Assembly: GCF_001866665.1 (NCBI RefSeq)
Contig: NZ_MLYO01000045.1
Coordinates: 1 to 64,000 of the forward strand
From: Streptomyces monashensis
GTDB lineage: Bacteria; Actinomycetota; Actinomycetes; Streptomycetales; Streptomycetaceae
Direction of reading: 5' to 3'
Length of the DNA stretch: 64,000 bases
Every line of letters begins with the position of its first letter. The stretch's first letter is position 1. Shown piece by piece: positions 45,987 through 57,424 of the stretch. The notes below the pieces were generated by a model, which made no database searches, had not been told where the DNA came from, and saw only the letters and a list, made by a program, of their open reading frames with translations. The position numbers and the translations under genes were made by a program.

Positions 45987-46889
45987 CTACAGCGTGAGCC
46001 CTCGGACCAGGAGGTCGATGAGCGCGCAGACGAAGAGGCAGATTCCGATGAAGCCGTTGACCGAGAAGAACGCCCTGTTCAGGCGGGACAGGTCGTGGGG
46101 GCGGACGATGCGGTGTTCGTAGAGGAACGCGCCCGCGACGATCAGCAGGCCCAGCCAGAAGAACGCGCCGGCGTGCGTGGCCACGCCGTACCAGACGAAC
46201 AGGGCCGTCGTCACCGCGTGGCAGGCCCGCGCACCCCAGATCGCGGCCGGGATGCCGAAGCGGGCTGGGACCGACATGACGCCGACCTCGCGGTCGGTCT
46301 CGACGTCCTGGCAGGCGTAGATCAGGTCGAACCCGCCGATCCAGATGCCCACGGCGAGGCCGAGGATCACCGCGTCCCAGGACCAGGAACCGGAGATGGC
46401 CAGCCAGCCGCCCACCGGGCCCATCGCCTGGGCCAGGCCGAGGATCGCCTGCGGGAAGTTCGTGAACCGCTTGCCGTAGGGGTAGACCACCATCGGGATG
46501 ACGGCCACCGGGGCCAGGGCCAGGCACAGGGGGTTCAGCAGAGCCGCCGCACCCAGGAAGATCACCAGCGCGATCAGGGCACCGGTCCAGGCGTGCCGGA
46601 CCGACATCGCGCCGGTCACCAGTTCCCGGTGCGCGGTGCGCGGGTTACGGGCGTCGATCTCGCGGTCGATGATCCGGTTGACCGCCATCGCGAACGTGCG
46701 CAGGCCGACCATGCAGATCGTGACCAGCAGCAGCCGGGCCCAGTGAATGTTCTTGTCCCACTGGTACATCGCGGTCAGCGAGGCGATGTAGGCGAAGGGC
46801 AGCGCGAAGACCGAGTGCTCGATCATCACCAGGCGGAGAAAGGCTTTCGTGCGTCCCGGCTGGGGGATCGCGGCGGACGCTGAACTCAC
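45987..46889 (-). CDS. mqnP: Menaquinone-pathway polyprenyltransferase MqnP (UbiA family)
   Basis: 300 residues, membrane protein. The two Asp-rich motifs NRIIDREIDARNPRT (about 71-85) and YACQDVETDREVG (about 188-200) are intact. Start MSSASAAIPQPGRTKAFLRL. Prenylates 1,4-dihydroxy-6-naphthoate in the futalosine route. ATG 46889 overlaps the mqnL stop by 4 bases, so the two genes are coupled. Confidence 0.92.
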   Translation of the reverse strand: MSSASAAIPQPGRTKAFLRLVMIEHSVFALPFAYIASLTAMYQWDKNIHWARLLLVTICMVGLRTFAMAVNRIIDREIDARNPRTAHRELVTGAMSVRHAWTGALIALVIFLGAAALLNPLCLALAPVAVIPMVVYPYGKRFTNFPQAILGLAQAMGPVGGWLAISGSWSWDAVILGLAVGIWIGGFDLIYACQDVETDREVGVMSVPARFGIPAAIWGARACHAVTTALFVWYGVATHAGAFFWLGLLIVAGAFLYEHRIVRPHDLSRLNRAFFSVNGFIGICLFVCALIDLLVRGLTL

Positions 46890-48337
46890 AGTCCGTACTC
46901 CTTCCAGCGGCGGTCCACGAGAGCCGCCGTATCAGGGTCGGAGAGGACCATGTCCGGCCAGCCGCCGTCCCGGGTGTAGCCCTCCTCCGGCCACTTCTTC
47001 GTCGCGTCGATCCCCGCCTTGCCGCCCCAGAACTGCTGGTAGGAGGCGTGGTCGAGGTGATCGACGGGGCCTTCGACGACCGTGAGGTCGCGGGCGTAGT
47101 CCGTGTTGCCGAGGGCCCGCCAGGCGACCTCGTGCAGATCGTGGACGTCGCAGTCGGCGTCCACCACCACGATCAGCTTGGTCAGGGACATCATGTGCGC
47201 CCCCCAGATGGCGTGCATCACCTTCTGCGCGTGCTTCGGGTACTTCTTGTCGATCGAGACGATCGCGCAGTTGTGGAAGCCGCCGGCCTCGGGCAGGTGG
47301 TAGTCCACGATGTCCGGGACGATGATCTTGAGGAGCGGCAGGAAGAAACGCTCCGTGGCGCGGCCGAGCGGGCCGTCCTCCGTCGGCGGGCGGCCGACCA
47401 CGATCGACTGGAGCAGCGGGCGCCTGCGCATCGTCACGCAGTCGATCGTCAGCGCCGGGAACGGCTCCTGCGGCGTGTAGAAGCCGGTGTGGTCGCCGAA
47501 GGGGCCCTCGGGCAGCATCTCGCCCGGCTCCAGCCAGCCCTCCAGCACGACCTCGGCGTGCGCGGGCACCTGCAGCGGGACCGTCTTGCAGTCCACCATC
47601 TCGATCCGCCTGCCCGCGATGAACCCGGCGAACAGGTACTCGTCGATGTCGCCGGGGAGCGGGGCGGTGGAGGCGTACGTCACGGCGGGCGGGCAGCCGA
47701 AGGCGATGGCGACCGGCAGCCGCTCGCCCTTTCGCGCCGCGACCTGGTAGTGGTTCCGGCTGTCCTTGTGGATCTGCCAGTGCATGCCGATCGTGCGCTT
47801 GTCGTGGCGCTGGAGGCGGTACAGGCCCAGGTTCCGGATGCCCGTCTCCGGGTCCTTGGTGTGGGTCAGCCCCAGGTTGAAGAAGGAGCCGCCGTCGTCG
47901 GGCCAGGTGAACAGCGCGGGGAGCCGGTCGAGGTCGACCTCGTCACCGTGCAGCACGACCTCCTGCACCGGGGCTTCCTTGATCTTCTTCGGCGGTACGT
48001 GGGCCATCGCGCCGAGCTTCCCGAAGGCCTCGCGCACGCCGACGAAGCCGTGCGGCAGCTCGGGGCGCAGCAGGCCGCCGATCCGCTCGGAGATCTCGCC
48101 GTACGACTTGAGGCCCAGCGCCTTGAGCAGGCGGCGGTCGGTGCCGAAGACGTTCATCGCGAGGGGCATCGCCGAGCCCTTCACGTTCTCGAAGAGCAGC
48201 GCGGGCCCGCCGGACTTCTGCACCCGGTCGACGATCTCCCCGACTTCCAGATACGGGTCGACCTCGGCCTTGATGCGCTTGAGGTCCCCCTCGCGCTCCA
48301 GCGCGCGCAGCAGGGAGCGAAGATCGTCGTAAGCCAT
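46886..48337 (-). CDS. mqnL: Menaquinone-pathway decarboxylase MqnL (UbiD family)
   Basis: 483 residues. UbiD-type, prenyl-FMN-dependent decarboxylase. Family blocks: YDDLRSLLRALEREGDLKRI, TWPDDGGSFFNLGLTHTKDP, GTRNLGLYRLQ-like text IRNLGLYRLQRHDKRTIGMH, GPFGDHTGFYTPQEPFPALT, VKVMHAIWG-like QKVMHAIWGAHMMSLTK. Acts with UbiX and MqnP. ATG 48337; coupled to mqnP by a 4-base overlap. Confidence 0.94.
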   Translation of the reverse strand: MAYDDLRSLLRALEREGDLKRIKAEVDPYLEVGEIVDRVQKSGGPALLFENVKGSAMPLAMNVFGTDRRLLKALGLKSYGEISERIGGLLRPELPHGFVGVREAFGKLGAMAHVPPKKIKEAPVQEVVLHGDEVDLDRLPALFTWPDDGGSFFNLGLTHTKDPETGIRNLGLYRLQRHDKRTIGMHWQIHKDSRNHYQVAARKGERLPVAIAFGCPPAVTYASTAPLPGDIDEYLFAGFIAGRRIEMVDCKTVPLQVPAHAEVVLEGWLEPGEMLPEGPFGDHTGFYTPQEPFPALTIDCVTMRRRPLLQSIVVGRPPTEDGPLGRATERFFLPLLKIIVPDIVDYHLPEAGGFHNCAIVSIDKKYPKHAQKVMHAIWGAHMMSLTKLIVVVDADCDVHDLHEVAWRALGNTDYARDLTVVEGPVDHLDHASYQQFWGGKAGIDATKKWPEEGYTRDGGWPDMVLSDPDTAALVDRRWKEYGL

Positions 48338-48843: not shown

Positions 48844-49509
48844 ATGCAACCGGCTCAGGATCCACCGCCCGCTCCCGCCACTCCACCACCCATCCCGTCC
48901 GCCCCGTCCGCTCCGCCCACGTCTGCGGCGTACATGCCGGACGTGCCCGCACCGCCCCGGCAGCCGACCGCCGTCAGCGTCGAGCTGCGGGTGAGCAAAC
49001 GGATCCTGTGGATCGGCGCGGCCGTGTACCCGCTGCACAACATCGCCCGCGTCTACACCTTCGTCATGCGCCCCAAGCGCAAGGAGGCGGTGCTGCGGTT
49101 CCTGCGGAACACCGGCGTGATGCTGATCGTCGGGTTCCTCGCGATGCTGCCCGGACTGTTCGCGGGGGCCGGCGGGGACAGCTCCGGTGCGAACGGCTAC
49201 GTCGCGTTCATATGGGTCGCGACGGTCGCCGCCGAGATCTACTTCATCATCGAACTGCTCTCGGTCCTGCTGGCCGCCGACCACCACGTCCTCGCGGTGG
49301 AGACCTCGGGCGCCTCCACCGCGCTGGTGACCAGCCGGACGCCGCAGTACCTGGACCAGGTCGTCGGCCAGATCTCGTACGCCATCGACCATCCGGACAC
49401 CGAGTTCAAGGTGACGGTGGAGAGCCTGCACTTCTCGCCGAAGAACTACTACTTCGGCGACAACGTCAACATGTACGGCGGCAGCGGAAACGTGGGGATC
49501 AGCGGATGA
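48844..49509 (+). CDS. Membrane protein with C-terminal GDNVNM motif
   Basis: 221 residues from ATG 48844 behind GGGGGA. Pro-rich N-terminus, two or three hydrophobic segments (TGVMLIVGFLAMLPGLF; FIWVATVAAEIYFIIELLSV), then a soluble region. It ends KNYYFGDNVNMYGGSGNVGI, the same motif that begins the next protein (NYYYGDNVNMHGGQGNTGI). The ATGA overlap couples the two genes. Such paired motifs recall amyloid signalling pairs in bacteria. Function unknown. Confidence 0.72.
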   Translation: MQPAQDPPPAPATPPPIPSAPSAPPTSAAYMPDVPAPPRQPTAVSVELRVSKRILWIGAAVYPLHNIARVYTFVMRPKRKEAVLRFLRNTGVMLIVGFLAMLPGLFAGAGGDSSGANGYVAFIWVATVAAEIYFIIELLSVLLAADHHVLAVETSGASTALVTSRTPQYLDQVVGQISYAIDHPDTEFKVTVESLHFSPKNYYFGDNVNMYGGSGNVGISG

Positions 49510-49856
49510 CGAGCAACTACTACTACGGCGACAACGTGAACATGCACGGCGGCCAGGGCAACACGGGCATCGTCAGGAACTACGCGGCCGCCGACGCAGG
49601 TCAGCAGGACCCGGCCCTGGTCGCGGCCCTCGCCGAACTCAACCGGCTGATCGGCGAGTTGCGCACCCGGGTGGCGGCGCCGGACGCGGAACTGCTGGAC
49701 GACCACCTGCCCGCCCTGACCCCCGACGCCGACGTGCCCGCGCGGCAGCGGCGGGGCGCGCTGATGGCGATCGCCGGGATCGCGAGCACCGTCGGCGCGG
49801 TCGGCCAGCCGGTCGCCGAGGCGGTGCGCGCGGTCATCGGCATGATCAGCGGCTAG
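49506..49856 (+). CDS. Small protein with N-terminal GDNVNM motif
   Basis: 116 residues. N-terminal MTSNYYYGDNVNMHGGQGN motif duplicated from the end of the previous protein, then a helical domain (LVAALAELNRLIGELRTRVA) and a hydrophobic C-terminus (RRGALMAIAGIASTVGAVGQ) that could insert into or act on membranes. Translationally coupled to 48844. Unrecognised family. Confidence 0.7.
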   Translation: MTSNYYYGDNVNMHGGQGNTGIVRNYAAADAGQQDPALVAALAELNRLIGELRTRVAAPDAELLDDHLPALTPDADVPARQRRGALMAIAGIASTVGAVGQPVAEAVRAVIGMISG

Positions 49857-49876: not shown

Positions 49877-51799
49877 TCACGTCCTCGCCCAGCTCTGCGA
49901 GGACGCGCCCGACCGGCAGGTCGCCTCGGCCACGCCGCCACCGAAGGCGAGGTCGAGGCAGCCGCCGTCGTAGACGGTGCGCAGGGTGTCGCCCGAGCCC
50001 GTCGTCCAGCGCAGATTGCCGCCGCCCTGCGAGCAGTCGCCGACGAAGACGGCCTGGCCGTTGCCGTTGGCGCTCAGACAGGCGCCGGTCGAGACGTTGA
50101 TGACCTTGACGCTGCCGTCGGAGGCACTGCGGAAGGTCCAGCCGGCGGTCGCGTCCGAGCAGGAACCGAGGCCCGTGGAGCCGTAGACCTGGATCAGGCA
50201 CTTGCCGTTCTCGCCGTTGCTCAGGTGGAAGGACCCCGAGCCGCCGCTTCCGCTCCCGCCGGACGAGCCCCCCGAGCCGCCAGAGCCGCCGGAATCTCCC
50301 GAACCGCCGCTACTGGAACCGGAGTTGCCGCCACTCCCCCCACTGCTCCCGCTACCCCCACTGCTCCCGGTTCCGGATCCGGTTCCGGAACCGCCCGCGG
50401 AACCGTCCGTCCCCTGGTGGCCGCTCTGGTCCTTCCTCGCGTCGCCGCTGCCGCCCGGGTCGCCCTTCGCCTTCCCGTTCTTCCCGCCCGCCGGGGAGGA
50501 CGACGCCGAGGCCGAGCCCCTTCCGGACGGCGTGGACGATCCGGAGGGGCTCGCCGAGGAGCCGGCGGGGCCGGGATCGGCCGCCGCGGAGACGGAGGCG
50601 CCGGGCCTTCCCGCGGCGCCCTTCCCCTGCGCGTCCGTGGCGAACGGAACCAGCTGGAAGGCCAGGGTCGCCGCACCGGCGCAGACGACGATCGGCACGA
50701 CGGCCAGCACGACCCGCTTGCGCCGCCGCTCCCGCCCCGGCCGCTCCGGCTGTCGCGGCGCATCCGGCCGCATGACGACCTCGGGCTCCTTCCCGGCCGC
50801 GGCCGGCCCGGGCTCGCAGGACCCGGGAGGCTCGGCGACGGTCGGCTCGGGCGCCTGCCCCGGCTCCGGTACGTCCGCCGCGAACTCCGCCCGCCGTTCG
50901 AGGTGTTCGGTGACGGCGGCCGGCCACAGCGGGGTGCCGGTGGGGACGTGGGCGGCGGTCAGGTCGAGGAGTTCGGCCGCGGTGGGCCGGCCCTCGGGGT
51001 CCTTGTCCAGGCAGGAGGCGACGACCGACGCCAACTCCGCGTCCAAGGCGGTCAGTTCACCCAGATCGGGCTGCTCGTGCACGATGCGGTACAGCACCGC
51101 GTGCCCGGACTCGTCGCCGAACGGCGGGCGTCCGGAGCCCGCGTACGCCACCACCGACCCGAGGGCGAAGACGTCCACGGCGCCGGTCAGCCGCCGTGCC
51201 CCCGAGGCCTGTTCGGGCGACATGTAGGCGGGGGTGCCGACCACCATGCCGGTCCGGGTCAGCTGGCTCTGCTCGGCGGCGCGGGCGACACCGAAGTCAA
51301 TGAGGGTGACGCCGTCGAGGGTCAGCATGACGTTGGACGGCTTGACGTCCCGGTGCACCATGTCCAGCGCGTGCACCGCCGCCAGTCCGGCCGCCGCGCG
51401 GTGCAGCAGCAGCCACAGCGACGCGGCCGGCAGCGGGCCGCCGTGCGCGTCGACCGCCTCGCGCAGGGTCAGCCCGGGCACGTACGCGGTGGCGAACCAC
51501 GGCGGCAGCGCGTCCCGGTCCCCGGCGAGCAGCGGCGTGGCGGCACCTTCGGGCAGCCGCGAGAGGTTGTCCAGCTCGTGTCCGAAGCGGCGGACGAAGT
51601 CCTTGTCCTCGCCGACGACCGACGGCAGGACCTGTTTGACGGCGGCGTACCTCCCGTCGTGCACACCGAGGTAGACCCGCCCCATGCCACCGGCCCCGAG
51701 ACGTCCGACCAGCGGGATCGACCCGATCCGCCGTGGATCTCCGTCCTCCAGCGGCCCGACTCCGACCTGTTCCCCGTTCAACTCTCTCCCCCTGTGCAT
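49877..51799 (-). CDS. Membrane Ser/Thr protein kinase with ricin-type lectin domain
   Basis: 640 residues from ATG 51799; TTG 51781 behind GGGGGAGAG is an alternative with a better ribosome site. Kinase domain about 28-285: GAGGMGRVYLG, AVKQVL, HRDVKPSN (near 150), DFGVARA, TPAYMSPEQ. Membrane helix VVLAVVPIVVCAGAATLAFQ near 363-385. Gly/Ser/Pro-rich extracellular linker, then a ricin B-type domain from about 521 (FHLSNGENGKCLIQVYGSTG; TGACLSANGNGQAVFVGDC). Suggests sensing of sugars outside the cell. Same strand as, and 25 bases after, the next entry. Confidence 0.92.
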   Translation of the reverse strand: MHRGRELNGEQVGVGPLEDGDPRRIGSIPLVGRLGAGGMGRVYLGVHDGRYAAVKQVLPSVVGEDKDFVRRFGHELDNLSRLPEGAATPLLAGDRDALPPWFATAYVPGLTLREAVDAHGGPLPAASLWLLLHRAAAGLAAVHALDMVHRDVKPSNVMLTLDGVTLIDFGVARAAEQSQLTRTGMVVGTPAYMSPEQASGARRLTGAVDVFALGSVVAYAGSGRPPFGDESGHAVLYRIVHEQPDLGELTALDAELASVVASCLDKDPEGRPTAAELLDLTAAHVPTGTPLWPAAVTEHLERRAEFAADVPEPGQAPEPTVAEPPGSCEPGPAAAGKEPEVVMRPDAPRQPERPGRERRRKRVVLAVVPIVVCAGAATLAFQLVPFATDAQGKGAAGRPGASVSAAADPGPAGSSASPSGSSTPSGRGSASASSSPAGGKNGKAKGDPGGSGDARKDQSGHQGTDGSAGGSGTGSGTGSSGGSGSSGGSGGNSGSSSGGSGDSGGSGGSGGSSGGSGSGGSGSFHLSNGENGKCLIQVYGSTGLGSCSDATAGWTFRSASDGSVKVINVSTGACLSANGNGQAVFVGDCSQGGGNLRWTTGSGDTLRTVYDGGCLDLAFGGGVAEATCRSGASSQSWART

Positions 51800-53780: not shown

Positions 53781-55190
53781 GTGCGAATCACTGACATCCA
53801 GCGCTGCGAGGTCCGGCCGGGACGGCTCGTCGAGTGGACGCTGAGCCCGGCGACGGTCGCGGCGGCGACGGCGGTCCCGGAGGACACCCGGCCCCCCGCC
53901 TACATCCAGGAGTCGCACATCCGGACCGCCAAGTGCGTCCGGGAGGACGGGCTGTTCGTGCCGACCTGGCTGGGCACCGCCTTCGACATCCCGGGCGCGG
54001 TCGACCTCGATGTGCTCCAGGAGGCGCTGCGGGCCTGGACGGTACGGCACGAGACGCTGCGCAGCGGCTTCCGCTGGGCCGGTGACGAGCTGCGCCGGTT
54101 CACCCTCGACGCCGCCGACGTGTCGCTGCACCGGGAGGACGCCGGGGACTTCCCGGACACCGATGGGCTCGTGCGGCATCTCCAGGGCCGCTTCGACTCC
54201 GTCGCGGACGCGCTGCGCTGGCCCAACCTCATCTACACGGCGGTCGTACGGCCCGACGGTGTCAGCGTGTACATGGCCTTCGACCACAGCAACGTCGACG
54301 CCTACTCCCTGCACCGCATCCCCGCCGAGGTGCACGAGCTGTACACGGCCGGGCTGGCCGGCGCCGCGCCCGACTCCCGCGACCCGGTCGCCAGTTACAT
54401 CGACTTCTGCCAGATCGAGCGGGCGGACGCGGACGGCATCGACGCCCGGCACGCGGTCGTCGACCGCTGGCGCGAGTTCATCCGGCGCTGCGACGGGACG
54501 CTGCCCGGCTTCCCCGTCGATCTGGGTCTGGAGCCCGGGGGAGCGCTGCCGCGCCAGCGGATGCTGTGCGAGCCGCTGGCGGACGCGACCGAGGCGGCGG
54601 CGTTCGAGGCGTACTGCCGGCCCTACGGCGGCAGCCAGGTCGGGCTGCTGGCCGCGACCGGATTGATCGTGCGCGAGCTGGGCGGAGCGCCCGTGTACCG
54701 GACGGTGGTGCCGTTCCACACGCGGGTGAGGTCGCGGTGGAGCGACTCGGTGGGCTGGTACGTCGGCGGCGCCCCGATCGAGGTCCCGGTCGGCCGTGCG
54801 ACGGAGTTCCGGGACACCCTGCGCACCGTGCGCGACGAGCTGCGCGCCAGCCGGCCGCTGTCCCGGATGCCGCTGGCCCGGGTGCTGAGCCTGCTCGGCG
54901 CGGACTTCCGGCCGACCTCGCCGGACCTGTACTCGATCGTCTCCTACTGCGACGCCCGCACCATCCCGGGCGCCGAGCACTGGGCCGAGCAGCGGGCGCA
55001 CGGGCTGATCCGGGTGTCGTACGGCGACCAGGTGTGCGTGTGGGTGAACCGGCTGCACGAGGGGCTGTGGCTGGCCAGCCGGTATCCGGACACGGACGTG
55101 GCGGCGAAGAACCTGCGGCTGTACGTGGAGCGGCTGCGCGACCGCATCGCCTCCGTCGCGCACGGGAGCCTCACCGCGGCGGTCTCCTGA
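53781..55190 (+). CDS. Stand-alone condensation-domain protein
   Basis: 469 residues from GTG 53781 behind GGGAG. Condensation fold of non-ribosomal peptide synthetases and acyltransferases such as PapA: PTWLGTAFDIPGAVDLDVLQ, ALRAWTVRHETLRSGF, and the catalytic motif FDHSNVDAYS (about 169-175), where the HHxxxDG motif is changed to DHxxxDA but the catalytic second His is kept. No carrier protein or adenylation domain nearby. May acylate or esterify a small substrate. Confidence 0.88.
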   Translation: MRITDIQRCEVRPGRLVEWTLSPATVAAATAVPEDTRPPAYIQESHIRTAKCVREDGLFVPTWLGTAFDIPGAVDLDVLQEALRAWTVRHETLRSGFRWAGDELRRFTLDAADVSLHREDAGDFPDTDGLVRHLQGRFDSVADALRWPNLIYTAVVRPDGVSVYMAFDHSNVDAYSLHRIPAEVHELYTAGLAGAAPDSRDPVASYIDFCQIERADADGIDARHAVVDRWREFIRRCDGTLPGFPVDLGLEPGGALPRQRMLCEPLADATEAAAFEAYCRPYGGSQVGLLAATGLIVRELGGAPVYRTVVPFHTRVRSRWSDSVGWYVGGAPIEVPVGRATEFRDTLRTVRDELRASRPLSRMPLARVLSLLGADFRPTSPDLYSIVSYCDARTIPGAEHWAEQRAHGLIRVSYGDQVCVWVNRLHEGLWLASRYPDTDVAAKNLRLYVERLRDRIASVAHGSLTAAVS

Positions 55191-55306
55191 CCCGGAACAG
55201 ACATCGCCGCTTTTCGTAACCCAACGGACACCACTGGCTCTGGTCCGGAGCAACTTCCCCTTCTTACACTGCTGTTGAGGGGGCGATCGTTGAGGGGGGC
55301 GATCGG

Positions 55307-57424
55307 GTGGGCAGACGGTTGCACGGACGCGGGGCGCTGTTCGACGCCGAACCGGCCGGTCTCGCACCACGGCTGATCGGCCTGCGCCCCCATCACCACC
55401 GCGCCACGCCCCTGGAGCACCCGGACGAGCCGCCCTTCGTCGTGCTGACCGGCACCCGGGGCCTCGGCAAGAGCGCGGTCCTGGCCGAGCTGCGGGACGC
55501 CTACCAGGGGCACACGCCGGTCGCGCTGGCCGACTGCGCGGAGGAGCAGTTCGCCCGGCCGCCGGTGGACCGCTCCGCCGACTCCTGGTCGCCGCTCACG
55601 CAGGCGCTGCTGGTGATCGCCGAGCAGCTCGCGGAGCCGGTGACCGGCGCCCGCCGGATCATCTTCCCGCGGCTGATGTCGGGCCTGGTCGCGGTGGCGG
55701 CCGGCGGCTGGGGCGACGCCGACTCGGAGCGGATCCGCCGGGAGGTGGAGCGGATCCTGCTGCTGAACGAGGGCGGCTCGCGCTTCGGCGGCTTCGCCGG
55801 GCGCTGGGCCGGGAAGGTGGCGGCCAAGGTGGTCGCCGCGGCCACCGGCACCGGTCCGCTGGTCTCGGGCGCCATCGAGGCGACGCTGGAGGCGATCGCC
55901 GAGGGGTTCGCCGGCCGGCGCCACCAGAAGGCGTCCGAGTGGTACCGGACGTACCCGAACGCGGGCGGCCACGCGCAGCGCGGGCTGATCCTGCTCTCCC
56001 GGCACTTCCGCGAGGACGGCCCGGCACGCGAGCACGCCGAGCGGTATCTGGTGCGGGCCCTGCTGACCGACCTGACCGAGGCGTACAGCGGGGTGCTGCC
56101 GAGGATGCAGCGCCTCGGCCGGCCGCTGGTGCTGCTGGACAACGCGCAGGCGGCGCCCGGTCCGGGGCTGGTGGCCGCCGTGCTGCGGGACCGGGCCGAG
56201 GGCGTCCGCGACCAGGTGGCGTTCGTCGCGGCCCGGCGCGGCGAGGGCCGGGCGGAACTGCGCAGCGCGGCCCGGCGGGAGCTGGCGGAGGTGGCCCGGC
56301 GCACGGACTGGGCGCCGGACGCGACGCCCTCCTCCCGGGCGCTGCTGGTGGCGCTGGCGCCGCTGAGCGCCGACGACGCCCTGCACCTGGTCGGCTCGGT
56401 CTGCGGCGACCTGCCGGTGCCGCCCCATCTTCCGCACGCCGTGCACCGGTTGACCGGCGGCAACCCGCTGGGCATCGTGCTGCTCGCCGAGTCGGCCGCG
56501 CAGAACCTGCCCGGGGCGTCCTCGCTGGGCGAGCTGCTCACCGCGCCGGTGCGGCCCGCCGAGGACCGGCCCGGCGTCCCCGCCTACGAGGCGCTGCTGG
56601 ACCGGCTGGTGCCGCCCGAGCACCTGGCGGAGCTGACCGTGCTCGCCGCGGCCCACGGCATCGGCTCGGCCGGTGCGCTGGCCGGGGCGCTGCTGCCGGA
56701 CACCTTCGGCCCGGCGGACGTACGGGAGTTGCGGACCCTGATGGCCGCGGAGGGGCTGCCGGCCGTGCCGGGCCGGTTCGTCGGGGACCGGTTCGTGCGC
56801 ACGCTGCTGCTGCTGCGGCTGCATCTGCTGGACAGCGACCACCTGTCGTGGCGCACCGCGCACGAGACGCTCGTCGCCCACTACACCGCGCCCGAGCACG
56901 CCCGCTACCGGCTGCACCACGAACTCGCCCTCGGCGTCACGGGGTCCGCGGTCGCCGAGCTGCGCGACACCTTCGCCACGGCGGACATGCGCGACTGGCT
57001 GCGCACGCTGCGCTTCGTGGCCTCGGCCCCGTACTTCCACGCGCACGACGCCGAGGGCCGTGACTTCACCGGGCGCGGCGACGGGCGGACCGCGGTGGCG
57101 CTCGGCCGCACGGACGCCGCACAGGCCGTTCCGGAGGGCGCGGACGCCGTACTGCACTTACGGATACGGCGGCTGCTGCACGCCGTGTGGCAGCTGGCGG
57201 ACCCGCTGGTGCTGCCGGACCCGCAGGTGTGCGACCGGCTCCGGTTCGAGCTGGAGCAGCTGTCCAACCTGCGGCCGGCGGCGGGCGCGCTGCTGTGGCG
57301 GGCCTCGCGGGACTGGCCGACGGCGGCGCTCGCCGGGCGCCCGATGACCGGGCCCGACGATCCCGACGATCCCGGGGACGGCGGGGACGGCGGCCCGGAC
57401 GACCGGAACAGCGGGGAGGCGTGA
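55307..57424 (+). CDS. Large P-loop NTPase, STAND-like, with TTA codon
   Basis: 705 residues from GTG 55307. N-terminal P-loop GTRGLGKSAV (Gly49-Lys55) and Walker B RPLVLLDNAQ near 271-280. It has LTGGNPLGIVLLAESAAQ, a GxP-like element common in STAND NTPases, and a helical C-terminal half. A TTA leucine codon sits at 57158-57160 (residue 618), so translation is probably bldA-dependent. The stop overlaps the ATG of the next gene (TGATG), so the two proteins are co-translated. Confidence 0.83.
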   Translation: MGRRLHGRGALFDAEPAGLAPRLIGLRPHHHRATPLEHPDEPPFVVLTGTRGLGKSAVLAELRDAYQGHTPVALADCAEEQFARPPVDRSADSWSPLTQALLVIAEQLAEPVTGARRIIFPRLMSGLVAVAAGGWGDADSERIRREVERILLLNEGGSRFGGFAGRWAGKVAAKVVAAATGTGPLVSGAIEATLEAIAEGFAGRRHQKASEWYRTYPNAGGHAQRGLILLSRHFREDGPAREHAERYLVRALLTDLTEAYSGVLPRMQRLGRPLVLLDNAQAAPGPGLVAAVLRDRAEGVRDQVAFVAARRGEGRAELRSAARRELAEVARRTDWAPDATPSSRALLVALAPLSADDALHLVGSVCGDLPVPPHLPHAVHRLTGGNPLGIVLLAESAAQNLPGASSLGELLTAPVRPAEDRPGVPAYEALLDRLVPPEHLAELTVLAAAHGIGSAGALAGALLPDTFGPADVRELRTLMAAEGLPAVPGRFVGDRFVRTLLLLRLHLLDSDHLSWRTAHETLVAHYTAPEHARYRLHHELALGVTGSAVAELRDTFATADMRDWLRTLRFVASAPYFHAHDAEGRDFTGRGDGRTAVALGRTDAAQAVPEGADAVLHLRIRRLLHAVWQLADPLVLPDPQVCDRLRFELEQLSNLRPAAGALLWRASRDWPTAALAGRPMTGPDDPDDPGDGGDGGPDDRNSGEA

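Follow-up and report, generated by a model that had tools for sequence, protein, structure and literature searches.

Matched motifs at the facing ends of two overlapping Streptomyces genes suggest a membrane-anchored two-protein module

Amyloid signalling pairs and the window locus

The closest described counterparts of the gene pair reported here are the bacterial amyloid signalling motifs known as BASS, reportedly defined in Dyrka 2020. Excerpts of PMC7889193 describe these motifs around NLR proteins, with the motif N-terminal on the NLR and C-terminal on a Bell protein, in pairs that link the Bell protein or another effector to the NLR; the layout is also treated in excerpts of PMC8086366, PMC12261475 and PMC9815663. 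BASS comprise several motif families and occur in multicellular actinomycetes and cyanobacteria (PMC7889193 and PMC9815663, both in excerpt). In fungi, HET-S/NWD2 and HELLP/PNT1 carry a matched motif pair on neighbouring gene products (PMC7889193, in excerpt).

The window, by which we mean the whole 64,000-nucleotide stretch of Streptomyces DNA that was analysed, contains two overlapping genes (Table 1) that recall both kinds of system. As in BASS, a short motif, here rich in glycine and asparagine, is common to the facing ends of adjacent genes, C-terminal on the first product and N-terminal on the second, and as in the fungal systems the matched motifs lie on neighbouring products. The pair differs from BASS in having no NLR: the upstream product is a predicted PH-like membrane protein and the downstream product a small predicted helical bundle, and a Pfam search found an NTPase family (NB-ARC, NACHT or other) in neither. 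The locus was rejected as a BASS proper on this ground. It differs from HET-S/NWD2, HELLP/PNT1 and the animal RHIM systems in its partner domains, with no NLR and no RHIM core. The core of RHIM and PP motifs is of the QxG type; such a core is absent from the window motif and present in the class D pairs described below (for example at loci L094 and L105), whose QxGxxN core we take to be RHIM-like. Ten motif peptides matched no Pfam family and no RHIM, the one match being to a PDZ domain at E 0.17, and one motif peptide compared with PDB sequences gave a best E of 1. DUF6232 and DUF5955, the families to which the two products are assigned or distantly similar, are named in no paper of the literature searched, and such a pair is absent from titles and abstracts among the literature matches listed.

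Table 1. Coordinates of the gene pair, its motif copies and its predicted structural elements in the window.
Feature	Position	Strand	Description
Gene 1	48844..49509	+	221 aa, DUF6232 (PF19744), motif at C-terminus
PH-like barrel, first half	48973..49068	+	strands within residues 44-75, AlphaFold prediction
Hydrophobic hairpin inserted in barrel	49078..49269	+	predicted helices 79-110 and 114-142; hydropathy maximum 2.09
PH-like barrel, second half	49282..49425	+	predicted strands 147-154 and 159-164, helix 167-182, strand 188-194; AlphaFold
Motif copy 1	49444..49506	+	C-terminal end of gene 1 product, NYYFGDNVNMYGGSGNVGISG; motif 49444-49500
Gene 2	49506..49856	+	116 aa, distantly DUF5955-like, motif at N-terminus
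Motif copy 2	49515..49571	+	NYYYGDNVNMHGGQGNTGI, near N-terminus of gene 2 product
Four-helix bundle of gene 2	49611..49850	+	predicted helices 36-53, 58-71, 79-95 and 97-115; AlphaFold

The first-pass annotation had claimed a common motif on the facing ends of these adjacent genes, and both stretches are present as it wrote them. The product of gene 1 closes with NYYFGDNVNMYGGSGNVGISG, immediately before the stop codon, and that of gene 2 opens with MTSNYYYGDNVNMHGGQGNTGIVRN, so that GDNVNM.GG.GN.GI can be read at both facing ends. The two copies are identical at 15 of 19 aligned residues, and the C-terminus of gene 1 aligned with the N-terminus of gene 2 gives a BLOSUM62 local score of 92. 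When 707 combinations of neighbouring reading frames on the same strand of the window were scored end to end, the next best reached 42; among 25,383 sampled C-terminal/N-terminal combinations the maximum was 76 and none reached 92. These control scores, together with letter shuffles, rule out chance or low complexity. Searched against its own 10.25-Mb genome at E ≤ 10, the motif matched two sites only, both at the pair. The genes overlap by four bases in an ATGA, with the start codon ATG at 49506-49508 and the stop codon TGA at 49507-49509.

Predicted structures of the two proteins

Gene 1 scores 86.6 bits against DUF6232 in Pfam, above the curated cut-off of 27.4, and the match covers residues 49-181, leaving the motif outside it. 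In the AlphaFold model (mean pLDDT 83.6; input alignment of 55 sequences, with the L092 fragment omitted), four predicted strands precede a hydrophobic helical hairpin, which is followed by two further strands, a helix and one last strand. We read this model as a PH-like barrel of two sheets with a closing helix, in which a putative transmembrane hairpin is inserted in a loop. Structural alignment bridged the hairpin and matched the model to solved PH and PTB domains, with modest Z values, the top matches being 9pvg_C (Z 9.5, rmsd 1.9, 74 aligned residues) and 3ulc (Z 9.4, rmsd 2.8, 72 aligned residues). About 35 of the best 50 structural rows are of PH, PTB or FERM type by title, and the rest match the helices or the hairpin; Foldseek with the same model gave no match at E ≤ 0.001. 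Hydropathy exceeds 1.6 in all 56 DUF6232 proteins of the pair set defined below.

Gene 2 is predicted to form a confident four-helix bundle after a stretch (residues 1-31) with pLDDT under 50, and the motif tail of gene 1 (residues 203-221) likewise has pLDDT under 50 and is predicted to be disordered. Disorder of both motifs in the monomer models is as expected of parts that would order on assembly. The DUF5955 (PF19380) score of gene 2, 18.8 bits, lies below the cut-off of 27.1, and of the 56 sequences in the gene 2 alignment 34 match this family at E ≤ 1, the best at 1.8e-7. Foldseek against the PDB with the gene 2 model found no match at E ≤ 0.001, and VIA-align returned only generic helical bundles with Z up to 9.4, a range considered uninformative. 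A Bell or HeLo structure is not among the structural matches listed, which is not evidence of absence; the comparison with Bell proteins is by fold only, with gene 1 predicted to be PH-like and gene 2 to be a bundle of four helices that has no PDB match at that threshold. An NCBIfam search of the pair gave nothing informative. Phage origin was considered and rejected: tblastn of gene 2 against phage records found nothing at E ≤ 0.01, and neither protein had a PHROGs match at E ≤ 0.1.

It had also been suggested in the first-pass annotation that the hydrophobic end of the second protein could act on membranes. This part stands less well. The 19-residue Kyte-Doolittle maximum of gene 2 is 1.50, borderline for a transmembrane helix, a four-helix bundle is its predicted fold, and the clear membrane protein of the pair is gene 1; hydropathy reaches at least 1.6 in 32 of the 56 gene 2 relatives. 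The case for gene 2 as a membrane toxin is weak.

Motif classes and matching among relatives

Of 199 Streptomyces genomes, 48 contain DUF6232, a patchy distribution, and 49 have matches to gene 2, some of these matches being fused or distant modules. A phylum-wide draw of 296 genomes gave four matches at E ≤ 1e-4, two of them above the cut-off, the source genome included. We recognised 82 DUF6232 frames in the fetched loci and named contigs, a count that includes fragments and duplicates between collections, and in 73 cases a gene 2 family partner follows downstream. The partner starts at an offset of -4 bases in 62 cases and -1 in six, together 68 of the 73, so that pairing and overlap are conserved features of the locus. 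The nine frames without a partner by profile lie at contig ends (L060, L121), have an odd tail (L112), are the first copy of a tandem (L100), are decayed, fused or partial (L058, the first fragment of L092, L122 and L126), or have a partner of another family (L106). The motif is kept in relatives, and the absence from orthologues that had been named beforehand as evidence against the proposal was not found. The motif is missing from DUF6232 proteins of another actinomycete (G395), which counts against the explanation that we favour below. By contrast, L106 counts in its favour: DUF6232 and a next protein outside the gene 2 profile have HGDVVxGDKxGRDQYK in common, with a score of 82, a motif match despite the different partner family. 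At L100, two DUF6232 genes and one partner stand in a row, with the motif on all.

The pair set comprised 72 pairs (two frames of the decayed locus L120 dropped, the window added), reduced to 56 non-redundant Streptomyces pairs at 85% core identity. Reading the ends side by side, we distinguished six motif classes: A (GDNVNMYGGSGNVGI, the class of the window pair), B (NYGPVxxxNGGxGNxGF), B2 (NGPVFNQ), C (QYGxGxIG...HSGSGDI), D (QxGxxNxG) and F (IGSMRDFYNASG). The classes were assigned by eye; simple patterns misplaced L046, which is really class A (giving 32 in class A and seven in class D). Judged by eye, the gene 1 tail and its partner have their class in common in the listed pairs.

The mean motif score was 80.1 within a gene's own pair, 47.9 with the partners of other pairs and 22.1 with shuffled letters, and 55 of the 56 pairs lay above the 99.9th percentile of shuffles (the exception was L059). 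When partners were permuted, the observed total of 4488 compared with 2716 (sd 121) and was reached in none of 20,000 permutations; it was also unreached within class A alone (31 pairs) or the rest alone (25 pairs). An all-against-all ranking weakens the reading, with the own partner first for 15 of the 56 and among the top three for 24; the low number of first ranks arises because many class A pairs are nearly identical and compete. Most of the motif similarity follows descent, as indicated by the correlation of 0.78 to 0.86 between motif and core distances. A part beyond descent is measured by the partial Mantel test given both core distances (r 0.386, 0 of 5,000), and permutation confined to clusters of similar DUF6232 cores gave means of 4044, 4168 and 4323 at three thresholds, with the observed total reached in 0 of 10,000 each time. 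Facing motifs thus co-vary beyond phylogeny, as would be expected if, judging by sequence, they were private connectors that bind each other.

Genomes with several pairs allow the comparison within a single cell. Ten of the 199 genomes have at least two DUF6232 matches, and six have two or three complete pairs (G014, G076 and G097, in which a second complete pair is missing, were omitted). In these six, the own partner scored best for all 15 tails, the lowest own score being 57 and the highest cross score 55, and G102, whose two pairs are cut by contig ends, agrees, with own scores of 70 and 94 and cross scores of 42 and 35. Co-resident pairs therefore carry different motifs, and would be insulated from each other if the motifs bind.

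Searching the 199 genomes with a profile built from class A and B motifs returned 76 matches, spread over 35 genomes. By coordinates, 75 of these lie inside DUF6232 or partner-module genes and the remaining one had E 0.076, so that for these two classes neither an NLR nor any other third carrier emerged from the 199 genomes. In some proteins, between 220 and about 500 residues long, the gene 2 module forms the C-terminus, behind a glycine/asparagine-rich stretch (L123, L129, L130 and L168). Three of these are proteins of about 490 residues (L129:331-1830, L130:1837-3327 and L168:4007-5473), two of which were tested and gave no Pfam match at E ≤ 0.5. At L123:2683-3345 the motif and helical module follow about 100 residues, and the adjoining gene was read as sigma-factor-like.

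The first-pass annotation had proposed comparison with known amyloid motifs, which we could carry out in part, with single published peptides. Against the Frankia BASS3 peptide (PMC8086366, in excerpt) the window motifs are weak, with z of 2.7 and 1.2, and z ≥ 3 was reached by three of the 112 ends. The corresponding figures were 10 of 112 for the Nectria sigma peptide and two of 112 for a non-aggregating peptide. Class D motifs, RHIM-like on our assumption, score no better than other classes against the published BASS3 peptide. An archaeal BASS3-like peptide reached this level at one end of the 112, the partner motif of L113 (z 8.6), and the excerpt of PMC8086366 reports that this peptide aggregates. 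N/G-rich look-alikes can stay unaggregated (RDW70414; PMC8086366, in excerpt). These score comparisons are suggestive at most.

Explanations for the pair and its surroundings

We consider it moderately probable that the pair is a two-protein module, anchored in the membrane and held together by matched motifs of an amyloid-signalling-like type. The two genes would be expressed as one unit, yielding a DUF6232 membrane protein, in which a flexible motif-bearing tail follows the PH-like barrel, and a small four-helix protein whose flexible N-terminus carries the motif as well. The motifs would bind each other in a sequence-matched manner, most likely stacked in a shared beta-arch or amyloid-like core modelled on fungal and bacterial amyloid signalling. 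Binding would recruit and cluster the small protein on its membrane-bound partner, and a trigger sensed by one partner would be passed to the other. Since gene 1 stands in the position of the BASS effector and gene 2 in that of the NLR, the small protein could act as trigger, with the membrane protein as executor; by analogy, an output in defence or cell death is possible. The first-pass reading of an amyloid signalling pair holds in part: the conserved motif, the facing ends of overlapping genes, the pairwise co-variation and the separate classes speak for it, whereas the missing NTPase domain, the missing third carrier of class A or B motifs and the weak BASS3 peptide score speak against it. 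More tentatively, and as a proposal that we stop short of favouring, the pair may represent an NLR-free amyloid-like couple with co-evolving prion-like end motifs, in at least six insulated classes and with several couples per Streptomyces cell.

Co-variation, overlap and distinctness would fit equally well if the motifs were matched heterodimer connectors, which form a small discrete beta structure and no growing amyloid and hold together a constitutive complex, not a switch. We regard this as rather unlikely, because the motifs are alike rather than complementary, which favours homotypic stacking, and because the facing-end layout is of the BASS type (PMC7889193, in excerpt).

Distinctly unlikely, in our judgement, is an antiphage or cell-death module in which a trigger causes the small helical protein to polymerise on DUF6232 and damage the membrane. 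PADLOC gave no match for the pair at E ≤ 1, the partner's hydropathy is borderline (at least 1.6 in 32 of 56) and gene 2 is predicted as a bundle. For at least 16 class A loci among the 72, the pair adjoins UbiD and not a defence island, the flanks available being mostly 1.5 to 4 kb. Such a module would nevertheless be in keeping with an architecture analogous to fungal and bacterial amyloid death modules (PMC7889193, in excerpt), with the patchy distribution (48 of 199 genomes) and with plasmid copies. Gene 1 matches 23 Streptomyces plasmid records, 17 of the 20 listed coming from S. clavuligerus strains, and pairs on the two plasmids inspected, an S. clavuligerus record and the NBC_00846 plasmid, have motifs that match.

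The rate of same-codon use at identical motif residues was 0.688 within pairs (743 cases) and 0.685 between pairs. Because the two rates are equal, the excess over the pooled codon-usage expectation of 0.57 does not come from copying within pairs, and the matching is explained by protein-level selection, not recent gene conversion, which was rejected on this comparison despite the excess in the plain codon-usage test. Already disfavoured and very improbable, therefore, is the view that about 60 bases spanning the gene junction were recently duplicated in tandem and that gene conversion has kept these functionless copies alike, for although the copies start 71 bases apart, the same-codon rate of 0.69 exceeds expectation and decayed fusions through one motif copy exist (L125, L126 and L170, each with one domain read as truncated or frameshifted), codon sharing is no higher within pairs than between them, the motif is kept across many Streptomyces, and co-resident pairs differ in class yet match within the pair.

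If the two-protein module joined by matched motifs is real, its two genes, with fewer than 350 encoded residues and motif classes that co-vary in nature, would offer a compact test-bed for motif specificity, and the pair would suggest a joint role for DUF6232 and DUF5955, two families of unknown function.

On one side the pair's neighbours in the window are UbiA-like and UbiD genes (45987-48337, minus strand), and the opposite side varies among relatives; the pair occupies a variable slot beside a core locus. Convergent with the pair, at 49877-51799 on the minus strand, is a gene whose product combines a Ser/Thr protein kinase, a low-complexity linker and, at the C-terminus, a ricin-B lectin domain. 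Further downstream (53781-57424, plus strand) lie genes for a condensation-domain protein and then a 705-residue protein with sub-threshold similarity to AAA_16; in relatives L020 and L030 both are likewise found close to the pair. A link to the nearby kinase or AAA-type genes was rejected: kinase, condensation-domain and AAA-type genes are near only some relatives, and the pair is treated as a unit by itself for this reason. Conservation of an inverted repeat upstream of gene 1 was not seen in ten relatives. TTAATGG and GACCTCTGGGGGAC boxes upstream of 48844 seem to be present in most of ten near relatives, and are possibly a promoter and a ribosome-binding site.
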